IMG/VR virus record: IMGVR_UViG_3300032213_001974
Span: 1 to 61,885 of that record
DNA length: 61,885 bases
Strand: one strand, 5' to 3'
DNA from: a virus
The notes under the pieces are model-generated. The model was not told where the DNA came from. It ran no database searches and saw only the letters and a list, made by a program, of their open reading frames with translations. Position 1 is the first letter of the stretch, and each line of letters begins with the position of its first letter. Below, in pieces: positions 7,862-61,885 of this stretch. The position numbers and the translations under genes were made by a program.

Positions 7862-8015
7862 CGGGACTGTTCTCTACGGCATCCAAATCAGGCGACCAAT
7901 CGCCCGCTGGGTGGATTTCACCCGTAACGGAAAGATTGATCTTTACAAAGACCCCCGAGCGCGGGATGACATGCGCGAGTACTTGAGAAAGCTACCAGAT
8001 CCCAAGAGATCATGA
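7827..8015 (+). CDS. Hypothetical protein (62 aa), GTG start
   Basis: The reading frame is open from 7725, but upstream codons overlap the preceding gene. GTG 7827 gives MKTKATEFPQRDGTVLYGIQ followed by VDFTRNGKIDLYKDPRARDD and MREYLRKLPDP. The alternation of strands and charged turns looks like a small folded protein. Its stop overlaps the start of the Nmad1/DUF1599-like gene (ATGA), which supports this frame being translated. Function is unknown. Confidence 0.5.
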   Translation: MKTKATEFPQRDGTVLYGIQIRRPIARWVDFTRNGKIDLYKDPRARDDMREYLRKLPDPKRS

Positions 8016-8578
8016 AACTAGACAACCTCCTTTCTCTCCACGAAGAGACCACCACCCGATGCCGCGAGATCATGCGGCAGAAAAACATGGACTACTCCGG
8101 AGGCGACGGCGACCCGTTCGCCAACTTCCGAATCGCGGAATCCTTTGGCTTGCATCCTGTTACCGGAATCATTCTCCGGATGACGGACAAGCTCCAGCGC
8201 GTGCGCGCCTTCATCAAGAACGGAGTCTGTGCCGTGGATGGCGAATCCGTGGACGACGCTTGCGATGACTTGGTCAACTATGCGATCCTCATGAAGGGGT
8301 TGCTTAGGGAAGAGCGCGCCAGCAAAGCAGTCCCCGGACACGAGACCCTCGAAGCTTCCTATGAAACGGTTACCGGGAACCCACCGGAAGAAAAGTGGTT
8401 CAATATTCCTAACGAAGTAGAACCCCAATACAGGCGTCTGAACTCTGGAGAAAGAATCAAAACGGGAGATCAGTTCAAGACGGACCTCAGACCAGAGTGG
8501 TCTGCCGTAAGCGCTTTCCTCGTGGGGAGTCCGTTTGATTACTGGGATGGTAAACTTGAAGTACGTCGCCCACTATGA
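8012..8578 (+). CDS. Nucleotide modification associated domain 1 (DUF1599-like) protein (188 aa)
   Basis: KNMDYSGGDGDPFANFRIAE near residue 24 and GIILRMTDKLQRVRAFIKNG followed by SVDDACDDLVNYAILMKGLL match the phage domain called Nmad1/DUF1599, a MazG/dUTPase-like all-alpha fold. Acidic metal-ligand helices (DDACDDLVNY) are present. The family is linked by gene neighbourhood to modified nucleotides and nucleotide pool control. The C-terminal 75 residues (KWFNIPNEVEPQYRRLNSGE and onward) look like a separate small domain. The substrate is not known. Confidence 0.8.
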   Translation: MKLDNLLSLHEETTTRCREIMRQKNMDYSGGDGDPFANFRIAESFGLHPVTGIILRMTDKLQRVRAFIKNGVCAVDGESVDDACDDLVNYAILMKGLLREERASKAVPGHETLEASYETVTGNPPEEKWFNIPNEVEPQYRRLNSGERIKTGDQFKTDLRPEWSAVSAFLVGSPFDYWDGKLEVRRPL

Positions 8579-39021: not shown

Positions 39022-39684
39022 ATGAAAACATACACGTCTAAAAAATTGAAGCAGATCCTCGCCGACCACGCTGCCTATCTCCGTGAACCGGCACAAGGCA
39101 AACGAGCCAACCTCTCCAGAGCCAACCTCTACGGAGCCGGCCTCTCCAGAGCCAACCTCTCCAGAGCCAACCTCTACGGAGCCGGCCTCTCCAGAGCCAA
39201 CCTCTACGGGGCCGACCTCTCCAGAGCCGGCCTCTCCAGAGCCAACCTCTCCGGAGCCGACCTCTCCAGAGCCGACCTCTCCGGAGCCAACCTCTCCGGA
39301 GCCAACCTCTCCGGAGCCGACCTCTCCGGAGCCGACCTCTCCAGAGCCGACCTCTCCGGAGCCAACCTCTCCGGAGCCAAGCTTCCGGTATTCCAGATCC
39401 CCCAAGGGGAAACACTTACCGTGTTCAAGAAACTTTCAAGTGGGGTCATAGCCAAGCTGCTGGTTCCTGCCGAGGCGCGCCGCACGGCTACTCCGATCGG
39501 GCGCAAGTGTCGGGCGGAGTGGGTAGAAGTGCTCGAAGGAACTGGTGTCTCCGGTCACGACAACACGACAGCTTACTCGCCCGGCACGATTGTCAGACCA
39601 GACAAGTATGACGATGACATCCGTGTGGAATGTACAAGCGGGATTCATTTCTTCCTGACTCGTGAGGAAGCCGAAGCCTACTGA
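39022..39684 (+). CDS. Pentapeptide-repeat protein with C-terminal DUF5758-like domain (220 aa)
   Basis: After [20 protein letters not shown], residues 30-118 are about 18 tandem pentapeptides A(N/D/G)L(S/Y)(R/G), encoded by near-identical 15-bp units. They form a right-handed beta-helix. The C-terminal domain ([20 protein letters not shown], then [14 protein letters not shown]) matches the DUF5758 pattern often fused to such repeats in phages. Pentapeptide proteins can mimic DNA (for example Qnr, MfpA), but this call is structural only. Confidence 0.88.
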
Positions 39685-41458: not shown

Positions 41459-42055
41459 ATGACAAGACGACAATGGTTTGAAACTTTGCCCGCCCCCTAT
41501 GCCGAGCGGGCTATCAGGAACGCCGAAAGATACGGCGCGCCACTTGAGGCACCACAGGACAACCTGAGTGGGGCCATAGCCGGGTCCTTTGATTGGTCGG
41601 ATACCCCGGAAGGGAATATCTTCTGGAGAGACGTACATCGCGGAGAACTCCCACCCATCCCCGACGTAACGGAACCTGCGACAGCAGCTTCCGGGCTTCA
41701 GGTCCGCGTGGGTTACAGATACCGGACTCGGGATGGCATGACTACTGGCTACGTCGAACCATCCGGCTGCATAGGCCAACCGTTCCTGTACAGAGTCCCT
41801 GTCGATACCTACCACCTCGTTCGTTTCGTCAGCCCGAACGGAAACTGGATGGGCGATGGGTCACCAAGCGATTACGACCTAGTCGAAGAGATCCCCCCTA
41901 CCAAGAAGATGAAGTATCGCATCACTGAGGTGCGCCACTTCTTCCTCGAAGCAGAGGATGAGATCGAGGCAGACCGGATGTTCCGGGTTGCCAGCAACCC
42001 GGAGCGCAAGTTCCGGATGCACACAGAGGATCGCACGATCCATGATGACGCCTGA
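41459..42055 (+). CDS. Hypothetical protein with YR-x-R-DG domain (198 aa)
   Basis: The protein has a helical N-terminus (MTRRQWFETLPAPYAERAIR) and, at about residues 80-147, VRVGYRYRTRDGMTTGYVEP with DYDLVEE. This is the domain found twice in the upstream gene. The C-terminal 45 residues (KYRITEVRHFFLEAEDEIEA) form a separate charged part. It lies directly upstream of the first amidoligase. Confidence 0.6.
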   Translation: MTRRQWFETLPAPYAERAIRNAERYGAPLEAPQDNLSGAIAGSFDWSDTPEGNIFWRDVHRGELPPIPDVTEPATAASGLQVRVGYRYRTRDGMTTGYVEPSGCIGQPFLYRVPVDTYHLVRFVSPNGNWMGDGSPSDYDLVEEIPPTKKMKYRITEVRHFFLEAEDEIEADRMFRVASNPERKFRMHTEDRTIHDDA

Positions 42056-42104
42056 CTTGTGGCAGAAACAGGAACTGACAACACTAAAAGAAAAAACTAA
42101 TAAG

Positions 42105-43427
42105 ATGAACGTTATTACATACACCACAACCGGAAAGCTTGTCGCCGTTGGTGACACAGTGGAGTTCGACTACCTCACGAAAAGAGAAGCCTACCCCGGC
42201 GACGTGATCGACGACAAGGTCTGCCTAGGCGGAACATGGATTCCGGTATCCGGAACCGTGATTGCCCATAACGGAATCCGGATTCCGTTGTCTGAAGCTG
42301 TTGAAATTACAATCGAAGGAGAAACCAAATACGCCATGAGCACAGAAACAATCGAGATTGATGGAGAGTTGTACCTGAAGCGGGATTGCTTCCGCCTTGT
42401 TGATCACTACCGTGATCGCCGCAGCGGCGGTGATTGGGTAGCGGAGGAACCGGAATACGGCTACGTCTACATGGAAGACTTCGACTGCTGGGCAAACGAC
42501 GAATTGGTTCACGACTGCTACGGCAATAGCTGTGCCTACTGGGACGAAGACGGCGAGTGGTGGCACGGCTGCTGGTACTCGTACGACTGGCTCAACGAGG
42601 AGACCTTCATCTGCGACTGCTGTGGTGACCGCTACAGCAATGAGGAATACGCTGAGGACGGCAACTGCAATAACTGTCACGAACCAGAGACCGGGTTGCG
42701 TTCTTACAACGACAAGACCAGTACGACCTTCCGCCCGGAGAAGGACATCCCCCTGAAGTTCGGCATCGAGCTGGAGGTGGAGTGCTACGACGCAGACGAA
42801 GGAGTCGAACTCTGCGAGTCCATCTTCCCGGACCAGTATGTGGTCTACAAGGAAGACGGTTCACTGGAAGAAGGGGGCTTCGAGATCGTGACCCGGCCCG
42901 ACGCACCCGAGGTTCACAAGCGTATCTTCGCCAAGTTCCTAGGCGACAACCGTGTCCGGCACAATTTGACCAGCTGGAACGGCGGTCGCTGCGGGGTCCA
43001 TATCCATGTCAGCCGCGCGCCGCTCAGTCCTCTGTGGATCGGTCGCATCCTTGTCATGATCAACTCGCCTTCCATGAAGTCGATTGTCGGCAAGGTGTCA
43101 GGTCGGTACAACACGACCTATGCCGAGATCAAGAACAAGAAGCTGATCCACGGCAAGAAGGGCAAGGACGAGCGCAAGTACGACGCAGTCAACAACTCGC
43201 CCCGCCACACGATCGAGTTCCGTCTGTTCCGTGGCACGCTGGTGAAGGAGTCCTTCCTGCGCTACATCGAGTTCGTCGAGTCGGTGCTGGCCTTCACCAG
43301 TCCCGCCACCACCAGCAACCGCGACGTGGCGGAGCCGAAAAAGTATCTTGACTTTGTGTCCTCGCGGCGCAAGGATTACAAGAACTTGTATGAGTTCCTC
43401 AAGGTCAAGTGCTTCTACGAAGCCTGA
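42105..43427 (+). CDS. Amidoligase (COOH-NH2 ligase), paralog 1 (440 aa)
   Basis: An N-terminal beta region (VAVGDTVEFDYL, TWIPVSGTVIAH) leads to a Trp/Tyr-rich part and a zinc-ribbon-like cluster (FICDCCGDRYSNEEYAEDGN, CNNCHEPE). The amidoligase core follows, with FGIELEVECYD, DGSLEEGGFEIVTRPDAP, RCGVHIHVSRAP and HTIEFRLFRGTL. This is the glutamine-synthetase-like fold of PF12224-type enzymes, which form amide bonds using ATP. The start is ATG 42105, directly after CTAATAAG. It is adjacent to a glutamine amidotransferase, its usual partner. Confidence 0.9.
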   Translation: MNVITYTTTGKLVAVGDTVEFDYLTKREAYPGDVIDDKVCLGGTWIPVSGTVIAHNGIRIPLSEAVEITIEGETKYAMSTETIEIDGELYLKRDCFRLVDHYRDRRSGGDWVAEEPEYGYVYMEDFDCWANDELVHDCYGNSCAYWDEDGEWWHGCWYSYDWLNEETFICDCCGDRYSNEEYAEDGNCNNCHEPETGLRSYNDKTSTTFRPEKDIPLKFGIELEVECYDADEGVELCESIFPDQYVVYKEDGSLEEGGFEIVTRPDAPEVHKRIFAKFLGDNRVRHNLTSWNGGRCGVHIHVSRAPLSPLWIGRILVMINSPSMKSIVGKVSGRYNTTYAEIKNKKLIHGKKGKDERKYDAVNNSPRHTIEFRLFRGTLVKESFLRYIEFVESVLAFTSPATTSNRDVAEPKKYLDFVSSRRKDYKNLYEFLKVKCFYEA

Positions 43428-43430
43428 TCC

Positions 43431-43452
43431 CTTACTAGAAATAACTGATAAG
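43431..43452 (+). repeat. 8-6-8 inverted repeat, copy 9
   Basis: CTTACTAG, six bases and CTGATAAG, between amidoligase 1 and the amidotransferase. Confidence 0.85.
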
Positions 43453-43516
43453 ACGCTGCGGGTGCAGCAGAAAACACCCACCAACATCTGAACTAAAACA
43501 AACTACTACTACTACT

Positions 43517-44572
43517 ATGTGTCTTGCACTCTACAAACCTGCCGGTATCGCCCCTGATTGGAACGCCCTCGAAACGGGAATGATGTACAACTCAGACGGA
43601 GCTGGCTTCGCTGTCGCCGTCGACGGTCAACTCATTGTCGAGAAGGGCTTCTTCAAGTTCGAGCATTTCAAGAAAGCGCTCGAACCATTCGGCGAACACG
43701 CAGCGATCATCCACTTCCGCATCTCCACCCACGGCAAGGTCAATCAGGCCAACTGCCATCCGTTTGACATGCGCACCTTCGGTGACTCGGGCGGCACCCC
43801 GCTTGCTGTCATCCACAACGGCATGTTCTTCGAGGCGTCCAACGACAACCCGGCGTTCAGCGATACGTGGCACATCTGCCGTGACATCCTCCACCCGATG
43901 TGGCTCAATGACGAGGGCTACTTCAAGCGCCCCGAGTTCATTCAGATGGGCGACATGATGGTCGGTCGTTCCAACAAGCTGGTGTTCCTCAATGCCAATG
44001 GCGACTTCGCCATCTGGGGCGAGGGCAACGGTCACTGGAACGGTGGCGCGTGGTGGTCCAACCGCAGCTACGAGGACTGGTCTGTCGCCGATCCGCGTGG
44101 TGCTTATGGCTCGCGCAAGAAGCAGTCTTGGACAAGCGTCAAGAATCCAGATGGCTCTTGGAGCTACAAGGCTATCAAGGACGAGGCTGAGTCTCCACTT
44201 GTAACCGAGGACCGAAAGGTTATCGGGTATGCCCCAGCATCCAAGACCCTGTCCGAGCAGGACATCGACCTCATGGAAGAGGACGAGTGGAGAGACTACC
44301 TGTCTGCGAGGACACTCAAGGAATCCGAAGGTGGTTGGGGCGTGGACGACGAACCGGAAGAAGAGGATATCTACAACTTGATCCTTGCTGAGATCGGCGA
44401 GGAGAACGAGTGGATTATCGAAGAGCTGTCCGAGTGTGGCTACACGATCAGTGATCTGGAGATGATGGCTTCCCGCAAGGACGGAGTCGGAGCATTGAAG
44501 GACGAGCTGGAAAGCATCTACGGAATCGCAATCCCGAACAAGGAAACCCTGAAGCGTATCTCGCACGTATGA
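43517..44572 (+). CDS. Class II glutamine amidotransferase (351 aa)
   Basis: MCLALYKP puts the catalytic Cys at residue 2, as in Ntn amidotransferases. NSDGAGFAVAVDG, IIHFRISTHG and IHNGMFFE carry the glutamine-binding Arg and Asn-Gly of the family. The C-terminal 150 residues (LSEQDIDLMEEDEWRDYLSA and onward) are acidic and separate. It would release ammonia from glutamine for transfer, presumably to the product of the neighbouring amidoligases. It lies between the two amidoligase genes and is ATGA-coupled to the following membrane peptide. Confidence 0.9.
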   Translation: MCLALYKPAGIAPDWNALETGMMYNSDGAGFAVAVDGQLIVEKGFFKFEHFKKALEPFGEHAAIIHFRISTHGKVNQANCHPFDMRTFGDSGGTPLAVIHNGMFFEASNDNPAFSDTWHICRDILHPMWLNDEGYFKRPEFIQMGDMMVGRSNKLVFLNANGDFAIWGEGNGHWNGGAWWSNRSYEDWSVADPRGAYGSRKKQSWTSVKNPDGSWSYKAIKDEAESPLVTEDRKVIGYAPASKTLSEQDIDLMEEDEWRDYLSARTLKESEGGWGVDDEPEEEDIYNLILAEIGEENEWIIEELSECGYTISDLEMMASRKDGVGALKDELESIYGIAIPNKETLKRISHV

Positions 44573-44691
44573 AAACAATCCTAACCGCATGGCTGGTCAT
44601 CTGTGTCCTGCTGGTCCTCGTCACCGGGGACCTGCGGGCGCTGCTCCCAGCGGGTGTATCACTCGCCATTATCCTGATAACCAAAGCATGA
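44569..44691 (+). CDS. Small membrane peptide (40 aa)
   Basis: MKTILTAWLVICVLLVLVTG and ALLPAGVSLAIILITK form two membrane segments. It starts inside the amidotransferase stop (ATGA), and its own stop overlaps the next start. The role is unknown. Its coupling to the amidotransferase is of interest. Confidence 0.6.
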   Translation: MKTILTAWLVICVLLVLVTGDLRALLPAGVSLAIILITKA

Positions 44692-44888
44692 TCTATCACA
44701 TCATCCCAATCAACGACATCAAACCACACACTCCATCACCTGACTGTTTCTGCCAACCAGTTCAATCAGCAACGGAACCCTTCGTCTCCTTCGACCACAA
44801 TGCGGCGGATGGGCGAGAGGCTACCGAGCGACGAACCGGGAAAGCAGTGAAGGGAAAAGGTTGGACCATTACAAAACAGACACCATGA
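44688..44888 (+). CDS. Small conserved-type phage protein (66 aa)
   Basis: MIYHIIPINDIKPHTPSPDC, then FCQPVQSATEPFVSFDHNAA and a basic end. I recall similar short proteins in phages, but I cannot name a family. It is ATGA-coupled on both sides. Confidence 0.6.
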   Translation: MIYHIIPINDIKPHTPSPDCFCQPVQSATEPFVSFDHNAADGREATERRTGKAVKGKGWTITKQTP

Positions 44889-45145
44889 ACCTGAAAGGTA
44901 TACCAACTCCTGTAACCAATCGCAATAAAGGGCGCATCAACCTTCACTACGTATTAATCAAGGACCCCAAGGACGGGACTTTTGTTGGGGCCGACGTATG
45001 TGCTGACCTAGAACGACGCGCCGCAGTATGGCGATCTATGGCAGCGCGTGGGTACGCTATCGCCATGGGGGACGCTGACCCGCCTGACATTGATGACTAC
45101 ATCACCGACTACAACGAGCTGACACTACAACTTGACACACCATGA
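44885..45145 (+). CDS. Hypothetical protein (86 aa)
   Basis: MNLKGIPTPVTNRNKGRINL, then YVLIKDPKDGTFVGADVCAD and an acidic C-terminus (DPPDIDDYITDYNELTLQLD). ATG 44885 overlaps the upstream stop. No family is recognised. Confidence 0.6.
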   Translation: MNLKGIPTPVTNRNKGRINLHYVLIKDPKDGTFVGADVCADLERRAAVWRSMAARGYAIAMGDADPPDIDDYITDYNELTLQLDTP

Positions 45146-45399
45146 AATACGAAACGCTAGACGCGATTGTCGTCACCACTCCAGACAAGCGGGAATCCCT
45201 GCGCCTCTCACTCACCGAATCCGTTGCCGGGCATCGGGCGCTGGTGTGGTCTTTCCCATTCGGGAAGACCACCTCGTTCGAAGCGGCACATGATCCGGAG
45301 AAAGCATCAGCTGTCAACTACGCCATGGCTTCCATGCTCGGGGATGACGGGTCCATGCTTGAGGATCTCGATACGTTCACCAACCACCACTGCAACTGA
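45142..45399 (+). CDS. Hypothetical protein (85 aa)
   Basis: MKYETLDAIVVTTPDKRESL, then SVAGHRALVWSFPFGKTTSF and an acidic C-terminal region. No family is recognised. It is 1 bp before the second amidoligase gene. Confidence 0.6.
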   Translation: MKYETLDAIVVTTPDKRESLRLSLTESVAGHRALVWSFPFGKTTSFEAAHDPEKASAVNYAMASMLGDDGSMLEDLDTFTNHHCN

Positions 45400-45400
45400 T

Positions 45401-47647
45401 ATGCCAGAAGAACCTACAATATCTCTACTCAGAGCGAGTGCGGTGTACGATAGGCTGATAGCGGATTCTTGCAATGCCATACTTACTGGCATTGGTAGTT
45501 CGTTTGCTAGCACATTGGAGCCACGGCAGCAAGAAATCCTCGACCCCGCACCTGTAATCAACTACGACGTATGGGAAGAGTTTGAATGCAATGACAATGC
45601 ATACTTTTATGCAGCCCATGTCCCTGTGGTATCTGACAGGTGCCTTGTGGTATCTGATGATGGCCCTATGGTATCTGACGAGTACCTTGTGGTATCTGAT
45701 GATGGCCCTACGGTCTATGATCCAAGTTTCAATGCAGTAAGAGCCGACACAACAACACCAGCAACCGCAATGCTAACTATGAAATACATATACGAATACG
45801 AAGGCCGACCAGTCATCATTGGTGACCGGATCGGGGAATACACAATCGCGGATTTCAGCGGAGACCTAGTTCGTGTAGAAGAAGTCTTGCCGGAATCTGT
45901 TCGTTACGAAAAGTACACAAACTGGGCGTGGGCGCGCCTTCTAGGCGTCATACCAAACCCTATCCCGGAATCCGGAATCTTTAATCGCATTACAGGTGAG
46001 AGGATTTCCTGCGAAGCTGGGACTGTACTGCCTGACGGAAGTACCATCCAGTGGTTTGACGAGAGTAGCAAAAACATCTACTGCGGAATCATGAATCATT
46101 CCGGACTCGTAAGTAGCACGTTCACTGCTGACTCTCTGACCAAGATGGGCTTGGAGATCCGCCACAACATGACTGCGGATATTATCAAGCAGGTACCACG
46201 ATTCCTGCGCAAGGGAGTTACCTGTATCAAGGTGGGTAGATCGTTCGTGCCAGCCGAGCAGGCAGTCTGGAGTCGCGGAGAGAAGAAATACATTCGCCTC
46301 GACAACGCAGTGCAGATCGACCTGACTTGGATGTCCAAGGATAACCCGAAGCTGGTCCAGTTTCTGGATGGGAGTTACGGGATGCCGGGTTCCGGGTACG
46401 CGATTACCGGAGGTCCGAACGCCGGGCAATTCGTTCGTAACCGGGCAGAGCGTGCGCAATGCGGCGATAGGTGGTACCCAGTCGTAGAACTGATTCCGGT
46501 TTACTACCGGGATGTTGAGCCTTGGGATTACCGCTTGACTGAGCCTGTCAATGACGACGGCTTTGAAAAGGTCAATGGTGAGTGGTGCTTGGCTGGTTAC
46601 TCGGTAACCCTAGCAGACGGGTCCGTGTGCGCTCGCCACCGCGCGTACCGGGTGCTCACTGGTTTTCGACCAGAGCCGCTAAGCGGTTGCACGGAAGAGT
46701 GGATTCTTCGCGAGACACTTGAAGACGTGGCGCGGTACTGCCCGGAGTGTGGGGCTTGGTCATTGCTCTCCTTTATGGCGGGTAGCGAGTGCAGGAGCTG
46801 CGCCGCCCGTAGTCGCACCCGCATCCGCAACTACTCGAACAACTACGCCAATAGTCTGATTCCTGAAGAGGACATCCCGATCAAGTTCGGCATCGAACTC
46901 GAAGTGGGGACCGACAAGGGAACCGGCATTGAACAGTGTGCGACCACCATGGCGGACGCACTCAGCGATCGTGAGGACTTTGCGAATTACGGAGTCTTCA
47001 AGATGGACGGGTCGATTCAGTGTGGCGGATTCGAGGTGGTGACAAGACCGGACTCGCCTGCCGTCCACAAGCGGATCTGGTCCAAGGCTCTCGCCGTGCC
47101 GAAAGTCCGCGAGCAGATGTCCAGCTGGAGCAACCGTTACTGCGGCATGCACATCCACGTCAGCCGCGCACCGCTAAGTACTCTGTGGATCGGGCGTATC
47201 TTGGTGACGATCAACTCCCCGGACATGTCCTCCTTGGTGACGGCAGTCGCCGGGCGCGGGTCAATGAATTACGCGCAGCGTGAAGACAAGCGCCTAACCA
47301 GTGGCAAGAGCCGCTACGGCGACAGGTACGAAGCGGTCAACACTACTGGGCAACATACCATCGAGTTCCGGATCTTCCGTGGCACGTTGGACCCCAAGGG
47401 GTTTGTCCGCAACGTGGAGTTCGTTGAAGCGGTGCTCGACTTCACCCGCCCTGCGAGCACCAGCCTGCGGGACATCGGCAAGGTCGAGAGCTTCGTGGAG
47501 TTCATCAAGAAGTCCCGCAAGGCTTACCCAGTCTTGTTCGACTTCCTGACCACCAAGGGATTCATCGACGACCCTAAAGTGGAATACAGGGCGGGCAAGA
47601 AATCAGTGCGTGTCCAGCGACATATGGATGAGCCTACCCCGTTCTAA
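45401..47647 (+). CDS. Amidoligase, paralog 2, with long N-terminal region (748 aa)
   Basis: ATG 45401 begins MPEEPTISLLRASAVYDRLI. An N-terminal segment with a 21-bp repeat (VVSD units, residues 76-103) is followed by beta domains (KYIYEYEGRPVIIGDRIGEY) and a zinc-ribbon-like CPECGAWSLLSFMAGSECRS with a further Cys. The core repeats paralog 1: FGIELEVGTD, DGSIQCGGFEVVTRPDSP, YCGMHIHVSRAP, HTIEFRIFRGTL. An internal start at 45772-45779 (MLTMKYIYEY) is possible. Together with paralog 1 and the amidotransferase it suggests synthesis of an amide-linked modification. Confidence 0.9.
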   Translation: MPEEPTISLLRASAVYDRLIADSCNAILTGIGSSFASTLEPRQQEILDPAPVINYDVWEEFECNDNAYFYAAHVPVVSDRCLVVSDDGPMVSDEYLVVSDDGPTVYDPSFNAVRADTTTPATAMLTMKYIYEYEGRPVIIGDRIGEYTIADFSGDLVRVEEVLPESVRYEKYTNWAWARLLGVIPNPIPESGIFNRITGERISCEAGTVLPDGSTIQWFDESSKNIYCGIMNHSGLVSSTFTADSLTKMGLEIRHNMTADIIKQVPRFLRKGVTCIKVGRSFVPAEQAVWSRGEKKYIRLDNAVQIDLTWMSKDNPKLVQFLDGSYGMPGSGYAITGGPNAGQFVRNRAERAQCGDRWYPVVELIPVYYRDVEPWDYRLTEPVNDDGFEKVNGEWCLAGYSVTLADGSVCARHRAYRVLTGFRPEPLSGCTEEWILRETLEDVARYCPECGAWSLLSFMAGSECRSCAARSRTRIRNYSNNYANSLIPEEDIPIKFGIELEVGTDKGTGIEQCATTMADALSDREDFANYGVFKMDGSIQCGGFEVVTRPDSPAVHKRIWSKALAVPKVREQMSSWSNRYCGMHIHVSRAPLSTLWIGRILVTINSPDMSSLVTAVAGRGSMNYAQREDKRLTSGKSRYGDRYEAVNTTGQHTIEFRIFRGTLDPKGFVRNVEFVEAVLDFTRPASTSLRDIGKVESFVEFIKKSRKAYPVLFDFLTTKGFIDDPKVEYRAGKKSVRVQRHMDEPTPF
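45626..45709. repeat. 21-bp coding repeats in amidoligase 2 (4 units)
   Basis: Four 21-bp units (gtggtatctgac... type) alternate in a 42-bp higher-order pattern and encode VVSD-containing heptads. Confidence 0.9.
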
Positions 47648-47649
47648 GC

Positions 47650-47925
47650 ATGATCGAGTTCCTGCTTACCTGCTCCAGACTTGGGGCGACACGCTGCTCC
47701 ACCTTCGCCGTGCTGGTCGCGGCGGGGGTGGATGGGGTCAACTCGAAAGAGCTGGCCGAAGTGCTCAAGGTCCCTGTCCGCTTTGCCAAGTCGGCACTGA
47801 GGCGGGCAGAGACCGAGGGCTTGCTTAACAAAACAAACTGGCTCCGCAACGGTTTCGTGGTTTACCGCTTGACCGGACTCGGAGGATCCAGAGTGACAGA
47901 ATTGAAGAAAGCATTTACACCATGA
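47650..47925 (+). CDS. Winged-helix DNA-binding protein (91 aa)
   Basis: The sequence GVNSKELAEVLKVPVRFAKS and ALRRAETEGLLNKTNW is a winged helix of MarR/Rrf2-like type, with the wing in FVVYRLTGLGG. It is a candidate transcription regulator for the accessory block. It begins 2 bp after amidoligase 2 and overlaps the following gene by ATGA. Confidence 0.75.
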   Translation: MIEFLLTCSRLGATRCSTFAVLVAAGVDGVNSKELAEVLKVPVRFAKSALRRAETEGLLNKTNWLRNGFVVYRLTGLGGSRVTELKKAFTP

Positions 47926-48080
47926 ACAAACAACTGCTATACCGACTGGCAGGGGGCTCGCTCCCCTGCCCTGCTGAAGTAAGGGCTGCCTCCCACCGAC
48001 TGGTGGTTGGCGGTTCCGACAGCGACGACATCAAGATCGTCTCCGACTACATCAAAACACTAGACACACAAGACACATGA
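47922..48080 (+). CDS. Small protein (52 aa)
   Basis: MNKQLLYRLAGGSLPCPAEV, then VVGGSDSDDIKIVSDYIKTL. The LAGGxLxxP text resembles the gene at 39714. No family is recognised. It is ATGA-coupled to both regulators. Confidence 0.55.
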   Translation: MNKQLLYRLAGGSLPCPAEVRAASHRLVVGGSDSDDIKIVSDYIKTLDTQDT

Positions 48081-48826
48081 AACACGCACAAGAACTGAAG
48101 ACCCTACTCGATTCCGGAATCACGATTCAGGAAGTCGCATCCCGGTTGGGGATCAAGGTAAGCTACGCTAACATGATCCGAAGCAGGATGAAGATCGAAG
48201 CCCCTGCCTGCTCCGAAACCAGCAAGGCCCGCCGCATCATGGACATCGCCAAGTTGATGGGCGAGGGCAAGTCGGACTGGGAAATCGCGAACGCCTTGGA
48301 CATCTCCGCCCAGAGGTTGGCCTACCTCCAGCTGGGCGGTGGGTTGCGTGAACCACGCAAGCGTGGACGAAAGCCCAACAGCGCACAGCGCCCGGAGCAG
48401 ATCAAGAAACTGCTGGGCGAGGGCAAGTCGGCACCTGAAGTAGCCAAGGAACTCGGCATCAAACCGAACACCATCTATCAGGTGTGCAGCCGCAACAAGA
48501 TTCCGATCCCCAAGTCCTCGTCAGCGAGGAAGAAAGCCCTCGATGCGGAGATCATCCGCCTGCGGGAACTTGGAATCAATGACGCGGGAGTGGCGCACAT
48601 CACTGGCCTCAACCCGGATCTGCTCTACACCTACCAGCCGAAGGGCAGAGGCCGACCCAAGAACAGCAACGATGAACTGGTGATCGAGGCGCTACGTCGA
48701 GGCGATAGCGTGGACGAGATCAGTCTTTCGTTGAACCTGATGCCGGGAACGGTGATCAATTATGGGCGAAGACACGGGTTCTCGTTCAAGAAGAGTTATG
48801 TCCTTAAAGAAGGAGGTGTGGCATGA
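48077..48826 (+). CDS. Multi-HTH DNA-binding protein with AT-hook-like motifs (249 aa)
   Basis: At least four resolvase-like helix-turn-helix units are visible: TIQEVASRLGIKVSYANMIR, SDWEIANALDISAQRLAYLQ, APEVAKELGIKPNTIYQVCS and VDEISLSLNLMPGTVINYGR. Between them are KRGRKPNS and KGRGRPKNS, AT-hook-like. This is an array-binding design, suitable for recognising repeated DNA sites such as the inverted repeats in this block. The gene ends with AAGGAGGTG, a perfect Shine-Dalgarno sequence in front of a 9-codon ORF. Confidence 0.8.
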   Translation: MKHAQELKTLLDSGITIQEVASRLGIKVSYANMIRSRMKIEAPACSETSKARRIMDIAKLMGEGKSDWEIANALDISAQRLAYLQLGGGLREPRKRGRKPNSAQRPEQIKKLLGEGKSAPEVAKELGIKPNTIYQVCSRNKIPIPKSSSARKKALDAEIIRLRELGINDAGVAHITGLNPDLLYTYQPKGRGRPKNSNDELVIEALRRGDSVDEISLSLNLMPGTVINYGRRHGFSFKKSYVLKEGGVA

Positions 48827-48869: not shown

Positions 48870-48907
48870 AAAAGCGGCACCTGCTTCACGGCGGGTGCCG
48901 CTTTTTT
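48870..48907. terminator. Bidirectional terminator between convergent blocks
   Basis: AAAAGCGGCACC pairs perfectly with GGTGCCGCTTTT over a short loop, with T runs on both strands. It separates the rightward accessory block from the leftward giant gene. Confidence 0.92.
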
Positions 48908-48911
48908 GCGT

Positions 48912-51900
48912 TCACGGCTTCAGCACTTGAACTGCCGGGTACTTGAGCGACTCCGCTACGATCAGTTTCAGGCGACCTGCGCCATTGCCATCCGCCTTCT
49001 GGCCTGCGTCGTAGTAATCCTTGAGGTCATCGCGGGATGGAGTCCAGCGGTCAGTGACGTTATTCAGCGCCTTATTCAGTCGGTCCTTGGAGAATCCGGC
49101 CTCATTACTTGTGCTGAACAGCTGACCTCGGGTCATGCCCATATTCTCGTATGACCGCATCATTTCAGCAGCACGCCCGAATGCAGCGACTCGCGCGCGG
49201 TTGGCTTTCTGAACTGCTTCGGTAATCTGGTCTCCATCAAGCGGAGATCGGGATTTCAGGATTCCAGTTGCTCGGCGGGACTGCGAGTAGGTCAAGGCTG
49301 CACTGCGGATCGCCCGATTGTGGTAGGTGCTGACATCTTCAACGCGGGGGCGAACTCCGAGCAGTTCTCCAGCGAAGATCTCAAGGCGATTGCTGGCCTT
49401 GTCGTCCTCGGTTACTGGCTTCTTAGAACCCTTCTCGCCCGACATCAAGTTCTCCACGAAGCTAGCTACGGGTGGTTTGTACCCTTGGCTTAGCGCATAT
49501 GTAGTGCGGGTAATCAGCGCCTCAAGGAAAGGAGTGTCTCCCGTGGTGATCGGATTGCCCTTCTCGTCCTTGTTGTTGAGTGATTCCATCGCCGCTCCAA
49601 TCGCGATTTGGTCGCCAATCAGCTGGCCAGTCACCCATTTCGCGGCTACCGCGGGTATCTCCGCTTCCTTACCAGTGCGAATCAGTTCATATGACCGCAT
49701 GATCAGGTCAGTGTAGATCGCAGTCGGGTTGATGAAGGTCATGTCCAGCGAGCGGATCTTGTCACCTACCTGCGTGAAGTAAACCGTGTTGCCCTTCTGC
49801 CAGTCGGCGAGGCCCTCGCGCAGGGCTTGGTCGCGGCGAAGCTCGTCGCCGTTGCGCGGCAGGAAGTAGTTCAAGATGCTGTCCGCTGTTACGTCCTCGT
49901 CGTCTCCGAAAGCGGCGGCGAAAGCGAGGCTGACTACGCCTGCCACAGTAAGCGGCATCAGCGTGAGCGTGGTCAGGAAACCAGCAAGGCGCTGGTTTCC
50001 TCGCTTGCGGATGACCTCGTTATCGCTGGCGCGTTCCTCGCTGGAGAGCTTAACTGTCTCGATCATGACGCGGGCGACTTCCGCCTTGAAGCGTGCGAAC
50101 GGCGCGATCAGGGAACCGAGGCCGGACTTGGTGAAGCTGGTGACTACCGGGAAAACCTGCGAGTGAGTCTGCGTGGTGCGCAGGACTTTGGCCGCGGCTT
50201 CCTTCTTGAGGCGGGCTTCCGTCCAAGTCTCATCACCTTTGTAGGCTTCACGCAGGACTGCAAGTTCGTTCTCGAACATACCGATGCGGAGGTTGGACGA
50301 GATCGTGTTGTTCAAGTTCGCACCGAAGGCGAGGGTCTTGGGCACGACCCCAACGGCTTTCTTCCAGTAGGCTTCGCCCTGTGCGGCGAGCGCGCTGCGC
50401 TCCACCTTGTTGAGTGCGGCTTCCGCGTCCGTGGCGAGGCCAGCAATCTGATCGCGCAGCGCCTGCGTGCTGGACTCGTCACCGAGTACGCCGAGTTCGA
50501 TAAGCTCGCGGATGTACGCCTCGTGCTCCCCCGGAGTCTTGGCGAAAGACGATCCCTTCGACTGGAACCACCGCTTAAAGTTGAGTGGGTTTAGCAGTAC
50601 ACCTTGGAGCGGAGCAAAGAATGCAAAATCGGACACGGCATTTCTGGTGTAGAATCCGACCGACAGCAGTGTCTTTGCCGCCATCGCGCCTCCCGCAGCT
50701 GCCCGCAGGACCTTGATACCGTTACGCACCGCCTGATCGGCAGTGTCTTCCAGCTCGGGGGAGCTTTTTGAGAAGATCGTATCGAAGGCTTTCTTGAACT
50801 CTGGTGGGCCATAAGCTCCATCGAGCGGTGCGTCGTACGCTGGGTTCGCCCCGGAGAGTTTGACGTAGCCCTTCTGGTTGGCGACGACCGGGTCCTTGGT
50901 GATCCATCCGCCGTCAAGCCCAGCCTCAAGCGTGCTTGTCAGCAGGTCCTGATTGGCGGCGAGCTTGGAGACGCTGATCAGCGAACGAGTTGCCGCTTCA
51001 ATAGGGTCGGTGATTTCTCCGAGAGCGGCGCGTAGCCAAGCCGGGAGTTCGCTCTTCTCCATGAAGCGACCAAGCTCCTGACGCAGCTCATTGGCGCGAG
51101 CAGAGCGGACTACTGGTTCCGTAGCTCCTTCCTCGAACAACGCCTTCTCGACATCCACTGCGAGAATTTGCCCAGTGGCGAGACTCGCCGCGTTTTTGTC
51201 CATGCTGGCGACGAACTCGTCGAACATGACTTGAGCCCGAGCAGGCGTGTCACGCAGGACCGCAGCCTTGATCTCTGCTGGCGAGAACTCCGGATGCTCC
51301 TTCTTGATTTCAGCTTCCAGTGTCTTGCTGGCCTTGTTGGTGTAGTGCCTGAGTGCGTCGTCGCGGATCTTCTGGAAGTCGATCATGGAGTTGCCGACCT
51401 GCGCGATACCAGCGGACTTCAGCAGCTTGGTCCAGCCAGTCTGCGTAAAGGCATAGTAGGAGCGTGTCAGGTAGATCCCCATGTTGGCGTCGATCACGGC
51501 GCGGATATCATCCGGCGTGAACGGGTTGGTGGCGATCTTTCCGGAAGCCTTGTCGATTGCGGCGCGTGCGTCCTCGATTACCTTGACTACCTTCGGTGGC
51601 AGCTTGGCTTTCGCTTCGGCGGCTGCGGCGCGGGCCTTGTCGGCGATCAGCTGATATTCCTTGACCACGCGACTCTTATGGCGTGCAACCGAATCAGCGA
51701 TCCCCTTATCATGAATCAGCTTGTCCGATTCAGTCTTTGCGGAATCCTCGAATGTCTTCTCAATGTTCGCGATCTCGCCGTCCAGCACCGCTTCGATCTG
51801 GGCCATGCGCGCCTTGGAGATCACCAGTCCGGTGTCGCCCATCGCGTTGCGGACCAGTGTCAGGTTCTCATCGTTGATGACTCCGGACTTGATGAACGCC

Positions 51901-54900
51901 TGCATCTGGTTGTTGAACTGTTCGGCGATGCGGGCTACCAGACGCAGCTGGCTGTCACGACTTCCAACCAGCGCCTTGACGGAGCTTGGCAGGTCGCCCT
52001 TGAACAGGCGGCTGAACTTGCCACCCACGTCGTAGGAGTTGTCGCCGTAGTTCTTCACAGGCAGGCTGAAGCGTCCGGTGACATCGTCACGGCGAAGCAC
52101 GTTGAGCTGCTCCTCGAAACCAGTCGGCTCGGCAGGCGACACCAACTGGTCATAGACGCGGGTGGCACGCTGCACTGAAGCGGCGATCTGGCTGTCTTCG
52201 ATACCGCGGATGCGGGTAGTCAGCTTGGCAATGAACGCTTCGAGCGCACGCAGCATGCGGGAAAGTATGCCGGGGTTGCGGCGATAGAACGAGTAGTCGC
52301 TTTCGCTGATGAAACCGCTGCGGGCCTTCTCGATTTCCATGCGGACGAACTCGTCAGCGAGTTCGCGGATGCCGAGCTTTCCGGAGGCGCGGTCTTCCCG
52401 GATCCTTTCGAACCGGGCAGCTGCGTCCGGGATACTCGCCGAGTAGTAGCGATCCGCTACCTCCCACAGCTTGGCAGCTGGGAGGGTGGTGGCGATGTAG
52501 TCGATGTCCGCATCGCTCAGGGTGCTGAACGCGGCGAGGTGGGCGATCTCGTGGTTGACGGCAGCACGGACAAAGCGGCGGGCGTTGAAGTCATCCAGTC
52601 CAGCAATCGCGTTGGCGAGCAGCTGTGGATTCACGAACACGGTATCAGGAGAGCTGGGTCGGGCGACCATCATTCCTCTCGCTGATTCGTCATACTGAAT
52701 CGTGATTCCGGATGGGGATTCTTGGGTGAGCAGCTTGGACATCTCGTCCTGCTCGACCGTGGTGGCTGTGATTTCTGGAAGCTCCCTGCTTGTCTGCTGA
52801 TCCCGGGACATCGCCACATCTTCGCTGATGCGTGTGCCATAGGGGCGCATGTTCGCCATGCCAACCAGCTTGGTCAGATCGTTCAGCGCCTTGGAGAGCT
52901 GGTCGGTCGGGCTGCCGGTCAGGAAGCGGGTGAGGAAGTCGAGGAAGCGGCGGAAGAATCCACGCTCCGGAGCGGTTTCGTAGATCGCCTTCTGGAAGTC
53001 CGGGGAAGTGAAAGCGTAGCTGACAAATTCCTCAAGTGATGCGAGACCTGCGAGCACCTGCTGCGAGTTGCCGTTGTAGGCGGACTTGATCCGCCCACGC
53101 AAGGCGTCGAGTTTCGCCACCAGCGCACGGGCACCGGCGGAGTCCGGGCTCTTGATCACCGAGACGGTGACCGCGTGGAGCATCTCGTGAACCAGAACGT
53201 CCGCCAGCCCGCGACCGTTGGAAGCGGCGAGGTTGAGGAAGATCGTATTGGATTCAGGAGAGTACTTGCCTGCCCACCCGGTATTGGGGAGGTTGACGAT
53301 CTCGATGTTCGCCTTGGCTAGAATATCGCGCTTGGCCTTGAGGAGCGAAGCAACTTCCTTGAGGCGAAGCGGAACCTTGTCGAGGGCTTCGATGGCGGAC
53401 AGGATGCTACCGCCCCGGAGGCCGAGGTCTTCCGCGTCCAGCAGGTTGTTGCGGAGGTTGGTTGCCGGATCGCTTGGAACCGCAGCAGATTCAAAGACTG
53501 CCTTGATGTCCTCGCCCACCTTGAAGTTGCGCTTCTTGGAGGCCAGCAAGGTCTGAAGCGTGTCACCGAAACGACGGAACTGTGCCTGCTTCTCCTGCGT
53601 GTAGCGGTTGTCGATCTCGCCAGCGCGGGCCGCGGCAAGCATGGTGCGGAGAACCGGGCGGGTGTATGTTGCGCCAGAGGGCAGCGAAATGACGGAGCTG
53701 TCGCTGTCCTTAGCTTTGATGTCTCCGGACTCTACAAGGCTACGAAGTTCTGCTGCCTTCTTCTTGTACTTCCTGCGGGTAGAAGCAGAGTAATCCGGAT
53801 TAAGTGCGCGCTCGTTAAGCTCCGCGATGATGCTTCGTGCGTCTTCTAGGCTGACGAACTGACTGGGAAAAACTTCATAGCGCCCCGCTTTGGATTCTAC
53901 AGATACTCCTTGCGGCTCTTCTGGAGTGAAGAACCTTTCAGGAACTGGGCGTGAGACTACGGTGCGACTTGGCCCCGGTTCGGATGGGAAGAGGTACTTC
54001 TGCATCTCCACCATCTCGGGCGAGAGAGTCTTGGACTTAGCTGCGCGATCCGCTTCACGCTTGGAAGCAAGGTCCTGCTTCAGTCCGATCTGCGCAGCTT
54101 GTTCGCGAACAAAGGCTTCGAAGTCGGCGATTGGCTTGAGCGTGGCTTCCACGACGCGGCGCATTTCCAGACCCTTGTTGGAGAGCAGGAACTGCTTGGC
54201 GCGCTGGGCTGCGGCGCGCATGTCTGCGGACAACTCGTTGCGGAATACGTCAATGAGCGCTTCTGTTGGCAGTGACTCTGCTTTGGTTACACCAAACGTA
54301 GTAGCGGCACGCTCGAATGCTTTGCGAACCTGTGGATTGGAGTCGATGTTGCTAGTTACCGCAGTGATTACTTCATCTAGCGAGGTTGGCTTTTCAGACT
54401 CTTCAATCACGTCATAGATAGTGGCCACTGCTTCTACAGCAGCGTTGTCTACACCCATGTAGAGGGGCCTCGCAATAGCTGCGTACATACTCGCCGCAAG
54501 TTCATCAGCGTCTACCTGTGAAAGGATAGCTGGAGTATCCGCGGCTTCAACACGAGCAGTCGGATCAATGAAGCTGCCTTGCTCCTTGATACGGTTGAAG
54601 TACTTCTTCTCGACTTGGGCGATAGTAGTCTTCAGCGAATTCGGGCGGCGGATCGTGGTACCATCCGCCAGCTTCTTGAAGAAGCGGGTGTTTACCCCTT
54701 CGTCTGTGCCGTTGAGTTCTGACACAAGACGATCGGCGTAGACCTTCATCGCCTGATCGGCGTTGAGCTTGGTCTTGCCCTTGGTGCTGAAGGTCTTGAT
54801 AAGCTGCGCCTGAGCGGCAGGGCCTACCTGCTTCAGGAGAAACTTGACTGGGTCCCGGCCAGCAGCGAGTTGTTCTTCGACCCGGATAGCCAAGGCAAAC

Positions 54901-57900
54901 TCGCGGAGGTCGCGGTGATAGCGGGCAAGTACTGCGAAAGCAAAGTCGGACTCATCGAACCCGTTTGCCCGGAGCTTCTGGTTGGTAGACTCAAGGATGT
55001 TCGCGTAGTTGGAGACCTGCCCGCCAAGAAGCAGCAGGCTCGCGTCGTTCATCCACACTTCCTCACCAAGTGCAATTCCGCCAGAAGACTTCTGTCCACT
55101 TGGGGATTTACCAAATAGGCGGGTAAGACTGGGTGGAACCTTCGGAAGAGACTCTGTGAACTCCACGTAAGGGCGGCTCAAGTTGTCCGGTCCGCCGACA
55201 AACTGAATCTCTTCCGGCACATAGGCGGACATCGGAGCCTTGAGGTCTCCTGCGCGCCTGACAACAGTGCCGTCAGGCAGTTCAACCTTGGTCACATACC
55301 GAGAGCTGTTGACTTTGATGCTTGGATTACGCTGTTCCAACTGAGCTTTGGGCACTCTGATGGAGAAGCCATTGTTCAACAGCCATGCAGTCATCTGCGG
55401 CGAGTTGGTGTGGAACCCAACTAGCTCTCCGTTTTCGCGTGTTACTGCGAGCTCGATGTTTACAACTTCTCCGCCTTCACGCGCGCGAGCAACAAGTTCG
55501 CGTTTCGCCTGACGCACTTCTCCGGAATCTGGTTCGCGTTCAAACTGGTAGTCGCCATTAATCAGGCGGTCCGCAATCTGCCCTTCCACACGCAGAATGG
55601 CGTCCCGCACACGCTTCACTGCGGCGCGGGCTGCTGGCTTGCGCTTTGCATCCGCTTGCTCCAGTTCGTTCAGGCGGGTTTCAAGACTGGCTTCAAGAGC
55701 AATCTTGGAAGCTTGTAGTTTCTGGCCGATGGAACTGAGGCGCACAGCAAGCGGAAACGTGATGTCCAGATCCTCGCTCGTCACGTCTGTTGGCTGCACG
55801 GGCGCTTCGTATACTGGATAAGCCGCCTGCACGTCGCGCTTCAGCGAACGGTAGAACGGTCCAGTGTACCCGAGATAACCGTAAGACTGCGAAGACAGTG
55901 CTGACTGCAACTGGTTGAGCTTGGGAACTTCGCCTTTTTCCAGATATCCTTGGTAGAGGACGTAGTCCGCATGACTCAAGAACCCAGCGGGCGAAGACGT
56001 GTCCGCAAGAAACTCGCGGGTGCTACGCTGTCCTTTGCCAAGGGACTTCAGGGCACTGGTCTTGTCGAGCAGAGGCTCAACGTCAAGCATAGTGAACTTC
56101 GCTGCCGCTGCGGCAACTTTGTCAGCGGCGGCTTGGCGCAGTTTCTTCTTGCTCGCCTTTGCGGCGGCTTCCTCGGCGAGTACTTCGTCTAGGATTGAGC
56201 GGGGCGAGAGGTCTTCTTGATCTTCACTGTCCCTTGGTGCAACTCCTTCAGGAGCGTTGCTTTCTGCTGGTCGCTTAGAGGTGACACCTTTGACAGCAGG
56301 AGCTTTACCTGCTTTGCTGACTTCTGCTGGGGCATTTTCGGTAGTAGTTGGGGTTCCGGGCGGGCGCACCGAAGAACGGTAGCCAAAAGTTTTTGGTGCC
56401 GCTGCGGGTTCAACAGGGGCTGCGCTCACTGCTTCGACTGCCGCATCGAGTAGCGCCTTCGGATTCTCCGAAGTCTCAAGTACTTCGACAACTGCCTGCA
56501 CGGCACGGGCCTTGGCGACCTTGCGCTTGGTGGCAGTAGTTGCGGGCTTCTCAGTTGCAGAGGGCTCAGGCACTTCGACCATAGCTGCGGCGAGAACTTC
56601 TTCCACCGCTTCAGGAGTCACGATTGGGGAGACAATTTCCCCTACGGCGAATTCAAGGAGATCAGCCTTCTCGGATTCCAGTTCTGCCTTGGCCGCGTCA
56701 GCCTCGGCGATGACTCCAGTAGCCTCGTCAAGTTTCGCCTGATAGACGCCAGCGAGCGCTGCGTCCTTGGGAGTCTTGTCTTCCTTCGCATTGAGGTCGG
56801 CGAGTGCCTTAGTGTAGAAGTCAAAGCGCTGGCGGGCATCCGCAGTGGTGCTGTCGTACGCGGCGAGATCGTTGTCGATCTCCTCGACACGGGCTCCGAT
56901 CTGCTGGTACCTGCCCTGCCTTGCGAAGCTTCGCTGCTGGAAAGCAGCACGCTCTTCGGGAGTGGTGTTATCGAACAGCGTCTTGATCGAGCGCTCTGCT
57001 GGAGACAACTGCGCATCGCGGGAAGCTGCTTCGGCTTCAGGAACAAAGCCGAACTCCATCTGTGCCTTGTCGATCAGCTGCGAGTCTTCAGGCGCAAGTT
57101 CCACGTTGCCGCCAAGGCGGACGCCGAGATCGTTCCAGCGAGCCATGAACGGGAATTCAAACTGGCCAGCAGTTTCCACAACGTCGCCTTCAACGGGCGA
57201 GAGATTCTGCGGAGCTACGGTTGTGGCGGGATTAGGGGCGGCTTCGTAGCGACCGTAGTAAGTGCCAGAAGGTTCGGTGATTGCGGCGTTACCAGAAGTG
57301 ATCGTGCTGCCTACCTGCTTGATCTGGTCGTCGATTCCGGAACGACGAGCCCGGAGCTGGGCGAGTACTTCCTTCTGACTGTCCGTCTGTCCCTCTTCCG
57401 GGATTCCGGATTCCACTTTCGTGATAAGGGCGTCGAGGCGGGCAGCAGTAGTCTGAAGCTCGCGGGTGCGACGGATCTGGTCCGCGGTCTGGGCGTCAAC
57501 TTCCGGAACTGGAAGACCAAGCGGGCGAGTCTTGTTGACCTGACTGCGGGCAAACACGTCGAACTCTTCCGCGTCGGCAGCGGCTTGAGCCTGTGCGGCA
57601 GCTTCTTCGTCTGCGGCGAACTGAGTGAAGCGAGTGCGGATGGTCTCCTTGTTCTGCTGGGCAATGTCCAGCTGGCGCTGGAGGAACGCAGCGGTGGCTG
57701 GAGCGCCGTTCGCCTTGAGGTTCTCGATCGTTCGACCGAGATAGCTGGCTTCAAACTCAGCCTGCTTGTACGCCGGATCAGCAAGGTAACGCTGCTCTGC
57801 AAGAGAGACCACTTCGCCAGCGCTGCCGAGAGCAAACCCGAAGGAAGCTGCAAGGGCAGCAGAGCGGGTGCTGTCGGTCAGGTCAAAGTTCTTTCCAGTC

Positions 57901-61038: not shown

Positions 61039-61885
61039 TTATTGGCCTTGGAGTCCGCGGTTGAACTCACGAATAGATTCGCGCCCTCTTTTCAGGAAGG
61101 GGGCGAGCCTTTGCTGGATAGTCTTCTGGCGGTCTACTTCGTCAGGGTTGAATGAAGGAGGGTTCAACACTGGATCTTTAGCTAATGATTTTTTGATACC
61201 TTCAGCAGCTGTGTACAGAGCGATTTGGGTGGCGTCCCCAACCTGACCCGCTTTACGAATCAGGCGTCCGGTAACACGAGCCGGGTTGCTGGCGGAAATT
61301 TTCGGCTCAACTGGCACAGGGGCAGGCGGGACATAATCCTCAACCGGGGTACGTGGTCCCTGATACATGATTCGTGCTGCGCGTTGCTGGGCAGATTCGG
61401 CCTCGATAGCCTGCGGGGTAACCTTGGCTCCATAGCCGGGCGCTTGAGCGACTCCGCCGATAACGACTGGTTGCTTGGCTCTTTCGGCGTCTTGCTTGTC
61501 TGCTTCGCGTTTATCGAAGTAAGCGTTTAGCGGATCCAAAAGTTCCTTGAATGTCGGACCTTTCGCCGGGGCAGGTGCAGGAGCTGCCTGCTTTTTCAGG
61601 ACTTCCTTCGTGCTGCCCGGAATGCCAGTAGGATTGGCGAGCTTATTGTAGGCATCCTGCAAGGACTTGCGGCGAATGGCGTCTCCTTCTTCTCGCGTCT
61701 GCTCAACCTCGGGGTAGCGCAGCTTCAGGTAATCCATCTTGGGGGCTGAGGTTTCTGTCTTGGGCTTAGTCGTGCCAGTCGTGCCAGTCGTGCCAGTCGT
61801 GCCAGTCGTGCCAGTCGTGCCAGTCGTGCCAGTCGTGCCAGTCGTGCCAGTCGTGCCAGTCGTGCCAGTCGTGCCAGTCGTGCCA
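61039..61885 (-). CDS. C-terminal part of junction-spanning Gly-Thr-Thr repeat protein
   Basis: The (Gly-Thr-Thr)n run from 61885 to 61769 leads in frame to KPKTETSAPKMDYLKLRYPE and a helical, Ala/Pro-rich C-terminus (LKKQAAPAPAPAKGPTFKEL, DPLNAYFDKREADKQDAER). It ends FNRGLQGQ 4 bp before the coiled-coil gene. With the 5' part (1-398) the protein is at least about 375 residues, depending on copy number. An ATG at 61737 is only internal. It is a candidate internal virion protein. Confidence 0.8.
   Translation of the reverse strand, partial: GTTGTTGTTGTTGTTGTTGTTGTTGTTGTTGTTGTTGTTKPKTETSAPKMDYLKLRYPEVEQTREEGDAIRRKSLQDAYNKLANPTGIPGSTKEVLKKQAAPAPAPAKGPTFKELLDPLNAYFDKREADKQDAERAKQPVVIGGVAQAPGYGAKVTPQAIEAESAQQRAARIMYQGPRTPVEDYVPPAPVPVEPKISASNPARVTGRLIRKAGQVGDATQIALYTAAEGIKKSLAKDPVLNPPSFNPDEVDRQKTIQQRLAPFLKRGRESIREFNRGLQGQ
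61769..61885. repeat. 9-bp tandem repeat, 13 copies, at right window end
   Basis: These 117 bases are identical to 1-117, so the two ends overlap. The genome length would be about 61768 bp if the overlap is removed, plus any collapsed copies. Confidence 0.97.

Follow-up and report, generated by a model that had tools for sequence, protein, structure and literature searches.

Two paralogous amidoligases flank a class II glutamine amidotransferase in a phage gene block

The virus record IMGVR_UViG_3300032213_001974 (61,885 bases, analyzed over its whole length and referred to here as the window) carries on its plus strand, at positions 42105 to 48826, a gene block that includes an amidoligase (ligase A), a class II glutamine amidotransferase (GATase), four small open reading frames (ORFs), and a second amidoligase (ligase B). 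Ligase A (42105 to 43427; 440 amino acids) begins with a short N-terminal arm that includes a degenerate unit of zinc/LIM type, followed by a CxCC..CxxC ribbon (residues 170 to 191) and a glutamine synthetase (GS)-like domain (residues 213 to 440). The GATase (43517 to 44572; 351 amino acids) is formed by an N-terminal nucleophile (Ntn) glutaminase domain and a lineage-specific C-terminal extension. Ligase B (45401 to 47647; 748 amino acids) presents a distinct, large N-terminal arm of about 430 amino acids, a CxxC..CxxC ribbon (residues 447 to 467), and a GS-like domain (residues ∼490 to 720). An alternative ATG at 45779 would give a ligase B of 622 amino acids, and in all three related phages the frame stays open upstream of this codon. 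The coordinates in the original prediction, an earlier reading of the sequence that described two paralogous amidoligases flanking a GATase, hold; its observation is confirmed, and its interpretation is borne out in part.

The two ligases share four motifs in the same order (FGIELE, DGS..GGFE.VTRPD, HIHVSR, and HTIEFR.FRGTL) and are 45% identical over 302 amino acids covering the zinc ribbon and the ligase domain, a likeness that is not due to chance, since BLASTP returned an E value of 2e-80. Ligase B matches the amidoligase family PF12224 at 27.1 bits in a protein scan (cutoff, 22), whereas ligase A falls marginally below the cutoff by hmmscan (21.3 bits); in a six-frame search of the record, both are above it. 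An alignment of 15 phage homologs revealed 14 invariant columns (ExE, DxS, E, GxHxH, Y, N, and TxExR), all of which are kept in A and B. The ExE, E, HxH, and ExR motifs follow the same order as in GS, and ExE, HxH, and ExR are taken here to be the GS metal and nucleotide ligands, on the basis of established knowledge and a co-linear alignment with YbdK, the models being free of ligand.

The zinc-ribbon-like clusters noted in the original prediction are present in both ligases and are conserved in both close relatives. In ligase A, one zinc unit is apparently degenerate and another keeps its cysteines (C170-x-C172-C173 ... C188-x2-C191), while ligase B has one ribbon (C447-x2-C450 ... C464-x2-C467) behind its large, different arm. 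N-terminal zinc-ribbon or LIM-like units also occur in homologs, with the Pfam LIM domain scoring above cutoff in one bacterial member. The arm of ligase B contains an in-frame 21-base tandem repeat (45629 to 45712) encoding VVSDDGP-like units, which was not seen in the arms of the relatives.

The AlphaFold (AF2) model of ligase A, built from a 43-sequence alignment, has a mean predicted local distance difference test (pLDDT) score of 82.3, with most of residues 213 to 440 above 90. This domain aligns with YbdK (1r8g) over 214 residues with a VIA Z score of 11.7 and a root mean square deviation of 4.0, and with glutamine synthetases at a Z score of ∼11.5. In the model of ligase B, the ligase domain is mostly above 85, the N terminus is poor (low confidence over the first ∼150 residues), and the top Foldseek matches are glutamine synthetase, YbdK, and Dop. 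When the ligase profile was run against the PDB by sequence only, YbdK was again the best match (E value, 0.17), with co-linear motifs but without significance on its own. The assignment to the GS/YbdK fold is therefore settled by the fold comparison, the sequence-only match being insufficient. The models thus show for both ligases a GS-like fold with intact predicted catalytic residues, including the expected ligand positions, so that the absence of a GS-like core, which would have contradicted the original prediction, did not occur. No match to the N-terminal arms was listed in the structure searches; as the arms were not folded alone, this has no bearing on their novelty.

The GATase begins with Met-Cys, as expected for the Cys2 class II enzyme that had been proposed. 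A profile of this protein and ten homologs matches GlmS (1xff) with an E value of 9.3e-14, and Cys2, Arg68, His100-Asn101-Gly102, and Asp116 are retained, as are the invariant columns of the family alignment. Alone, the protein scores 18.3 bits with the Pfam GATase_4 model, under the cutoff of 23, and the GATase of a phage relative (L045) is above it (24.9 bits). Identity to the GATases of the two closest relatives is 71 to 75%. The leaders before the starts of the GATase (43485 to 43516) and of ligase A (42075 to 42104) are A/C rich with no obvious Shine-Dalgarno sequence, and the GATase leader is alike in these relatives.

The pairing of ligase and GATase was quantified with profiles of both proteins. 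Scans of two collections, made with an alignment of six members, retrieved 79 viral and 79 bacterial loci, drawn from the best 80 of the 414 confirmed viral matches and the best 80 of the 296 bacterial ones; a 15-member alignment was too diverse as a query, and a single-protein search of IMG/VR with ligase A returned nothing, the peptide patterns used being too specific. Among the viral loci, a same-strand GATase lies less than 1 kb downstream of the ligase in 76 of 79, with a median gap of 66 bp; in two loci it lies just upstream, which brings the loci with an adjacent same-strand GATase to 78 of 79, and one locus reaches a contig end. Among the bacterial loci, 71 of 79 have a GATase in the downstream position, four reach contig ends, and four are without it (71 of 75 assessable loci). 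None of nine distant amidoligase relatives has a neighboring GATase, and pairing is therefore a property of this ligase subfamily. Clustering of the neighboring ORFs found no third gene that phage loci share with bacterial ones, so that the two proteins look sufficient. The ligase-GATase pair is a known, widespread, and nearly inseparable module. This bears out the original prediction, which had described such neighborhoods as known in bacteria and phages and had asked for a gene order conserved among relatives; the order is not random.

The bacterial loci (L094 to L172), among them those of Ruminococcus and other Clostridia, share with the window the two-gene core and the LIM/zinc arm. They differ from it in their surroundings: in Clostridia a DUF960 gene usually precedes the pair (56 of 70 loci), and a recombinase of the serine or tyrosine type lies nearby in 49 of 70, often less than 1 kb after the GATase, so that the pair looks like cargo of mobile islands. 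In Methylophilales phages MEP401 and MEP402, podovirus MW202733, and Mycobacterium phage Marvin, a ligase of the same subfamily as in the window, with cysteine clusters before the ligase domain, precedes the GATase. These phages of unrelated hosts have one ligase only, and their ligase domains are less than 36% identical to those of the window.

Of the viral loci examined, the window and two related IMG/VR phages (L001/L016 and L002/L015) alone show a ligase-GATase-ligase arrangement; both phages carry the same block of ligase, GATase, small genes, and ligase. A tree of 110 domains separates the A copies from the B copies, each group forming a clade with 100% bootstrap support, and the two clades are joined with support of 100/99. 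The single-ligase loci L017 and L018, in which the GATase lies upstream of the ligase, are sister to the A plus B clade (support, 99/93). Judged from this tree, the duplication arose after the split from these single-ligase relatives, which confirms the duplication with differing N-terminal regions that had been proposed and places it in the history of the family. The ratios of nonsynonymous to synonymous substitution rates (dN/dS) of 0.26 to 0.32 for ligase A, 0.19 to 0.28 for the GATase, and 0.21 to 0.29 for the ribbon and domain of ligase B indicate purifying selection on both ligase copies and on the GATase. In the N-terminal arm of ligase B, identity between the window and L001 drops to 46%, and ligase B is therefore diverging faster, mainly in its arm. 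Duplications also occurred independently elsewhere. In Ruminococcus locus L163, two ligases in tandem precede a single GATase, showing that two ligases per glutaminase evolved more than once, and bacterial locus L143 has two complete pairs. What is new here is the quantification of the near-obligate pairing and a lineage-specific ligase duplication with divergent arms and a single glutaminase.

Four small genes separate the GATase from ligase B, of which the original prediction had singled out only the first. A 40-amino-acid peptide with two hydrophobic stretches (ORF at 44569 to 44691) overlaps the GATase stop through an ATGA. It is hydrophobic in the window and in both close relatives (65 to 70% identity), and its constraint is weak (dN/dS, 0.43 to 0.62 against the window). 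The stop-start overlap that had been reported for the GATase and this membrane peptide is thus real in the window, but it is not conserved, as the peptide starts 4 nucleotides past the GATase stop in both close relatives. In the single-ligase locus L017, no membrane peptide lies between GATase and ligase, and these two genes overlap directly. For these reasons, the peptide was rejected as a coupled ligase partner of general occurrence, and the functional coupling that had been suggested is not supported.

The following gene encodes a 66-amino-acid protein (MIYHIIPINDIKPH...DGREA..; 44688 to 44888), which overlaps the 40-amino-acid peptide through a second ATGA. This protein carries CxC and DGRE motifs, is 73 to 79% identical to its counterparts in L001 and L002 with a dN/dS of ∼0.1, and presumably resembles a type of small protein common in phages. 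The 86-amino-acid ORF (44885 to 45145) is specific to the window, with no counterpart found in L001 or L002. The strongest conservation in the block belongs to an 85-amino-acid protein (45142 to 45399), which shows 89 to 98% identity and a dN/dS of 0.05 to 0.10, in a setting where neighboring genes are ∼70% identical. The 66- and 85-amino-acid proteins could be passengers.

The organization of the block is partly reminiscent of the LUZ24/UFV-P2/phiEco32-type cassette, which combines a PF14395 ligase, a PF12224 ligase, a GATase, an ATP-grasp protein, and a gamma-glutamyl cyclotransferase (UFV-P2, PMC3890496). Both the cassette and the window have two GS-fold ligases and one GATase, and in LUZ24, as in the window, a PF12224 ligase is followed on the same strand by a class II GATase (gp18-gp19, 12 bp apart; ORF23/25 in UFV-P2, PMC3890496). 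In contrast, LUZ24 has one ligase from PF14395 and one from PF12224, whereas those of the window are paralogs within a single family, and gp18 is without the N-terminal zinc-ribbon arm of the window ligases. The window record gave no match to the PF14395 COOH-NH2 ligase, for which the LUZ24 and phiEco32 positive controls matched, or to gamma-glutamyl cyclotransferase (PF06094), for which controls were positive in 9 of 14 genomes. For ATP-grasp, there was no PF14398 or PF08443 match in the record, although PF08443 also misses LUZ24's own gp21; a tblastn search with gp21 was negative as well. The LUZ24 cassette proteins gave only chance-level matches to the window.

The most likely reading of the block, with a probability of roughly 0.55, is glutamine-dependent amidation by a system whose single glutaminase supplies two ligases. 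Hydrolysis of glutamine by the class II GATase would release ammonia, each GS-fold amidoligase would use Mg-ATP to activate a substrate carboxylate as an acyl phosphate, and attack by the ammonia would yield a carboxamide. This would resemble the reaction of glutamine synthetase, except that a partner subunit delivers the ammonia. Since A and B have the same catalytic residues and different arms, they probably catalyze one type of reaction on two different substrates or sites, and the divergent arms would choose the different targets. A glutaminase shared in this way has a precedent in Bacillus subtilis, where PabA serves both TrpE and PabB. We infer the direction of the reaction, the direct transfer of ammonia, the sharing of the glutaminase, and the recognition of substrates by the arms. 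The substrate may be a host peptide or protein carboxylate whose masking benefits the phage, which is offered as a low-confidence guess. A more specific form of this reading, which appears rather improbable, is the amidation of proteins or peptides by two paralogous ligases sharing one viral glutaminase, where the change of arm redirects the modification and the 66- and 85-amino-acid proteins act as accessory factors or substrates. Several points weigh against glutamine-dependent amidation. Only ligase A directly adjoins the GATase; ligase B is 0.8 kb away behind the small genes and might therefore work without it. The GATase could also be an amidase or a gamma-glutamyl hydrolase instead of an ammonia donor, and the searchable literature yielded no biochemical test of a PF12224/GATase pair.

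The proteins may instead form a ligase/hydrolase pair, as in PuuA/PuuD of putrescine catabolism or PafA/Dop of pupylation, in which the ligases would couple an amine or an amino acid, such as a gamma-glutamyl unit, to a carboxylate and the Ntn hydrolase would remove or edit the added group. The nearest solved folds, among them the carboxylate-amine ligase YbdK and, from pupylation, Dop and PafA, are compatible with such chemistry, and PMC5498523, which cites Iyer et al. 2009 and Hardies et al. 2013, states that in related cassettes the GATase and cyclotransferase degrade, and the ligases form, unusual peptide linkages. Nevertheless, the GATase conserves the glutaminase residues of GlmS, and neither a gamma-glutamyl cyclotransferase nor a COOH-NH2 ligase was matched in the window or its relatives, so that this pairing of activities is considered unlikely. 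Either chemistry would be compatible with a role in modifying the envelope or peptidoglycan to block superinfection. That role has been proposed for the phiEco32/LUZ24-type cassette, which is suggested in PMC5498523, PMC10580990, and PMC11318856 (citing Iyer 2009 and Hardies 2013) to alter the cell wall and prevent superinfection, and no experiment behind the proposal was found in the searchable literature. Peptidoglycan is rich in peptide carboxylates and a membrane peptide is encoded nearby, but this peptide is lineage specific, and a GATase with a possible amidoligase partner (not confirmed by profile) occurs in the haloarchaeal virus ChaoS9, whose host has no peptidoglycan. Nothing in this analysis points to an envelope or virion protein as the target, and an envelope role is judged unlikely. 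The zinc-ribbon arms, which can bind nucleic acid, and a weak match at 8012 to 8578 to DUF1599 ("nucleotide modification associated"; 22.3 bits, cutoff 25) would suit a modification of nucleic acid bases by amide formation, comparable to 7-amido-7-deazaguanine. This is very unlikely, given that PHROGs and Pfam matched no deazaguanine or hypermodification enzyme in those window proteins that were scanned, and that the module is also found in bacterial mobile loci, where only DUF960 and recombinases recur widely as neighbors.

Amidoligase-GATase pairs are common in phages and in mobile elements of bacteria, and the searchable literature gave no substrate for them that had been demonstrated by experiment. 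Their near-obligate pairing marks the two genes as a functional unit, and the natural duplication, in which the arms differ and the active sites are unchanged, offers a comparison for finding what the arms recognize. A target, if found, would explain a widespread phage gene pair that is usually annotated only as putative.

The searches retrieved no close named relative of the phage: its terminase was unmatched in the phage collection, and its DNA polymerase reaches only ∼24%. Upstream of ligase A lies an ORF (41459 to 42055) whose counterparts in L001 and L002 are more than twice as long and match it in several separate segments, and further upstream a pentapeptide-repeat protein with a C-terminal DUF5758 domain is encoded (39022 to 39684). 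A terminator-like hairpin with a T run (48890 to 48902, plus strand), detected by consensus scan only, stands 3′ of the plus-strand gene block; promoter and terminator consensus scans gave site numbers not above those of shuffled sequences, and terminator-like sites in the region were below the shuffled mean. The minus strand from 48912 to 60149 is occupied by a single ORF of 3,745 amino acids, which has no PHROG match and shares ∼90% identity with relatives over the part compared. Both termini of the record (1 to 117 and 61769 to 61885) consist of 13 copies of GTCGTGCCA, and the cut that opened the contig probably fell within a single minisatellite, which fits a circular or repeat-joined genome.

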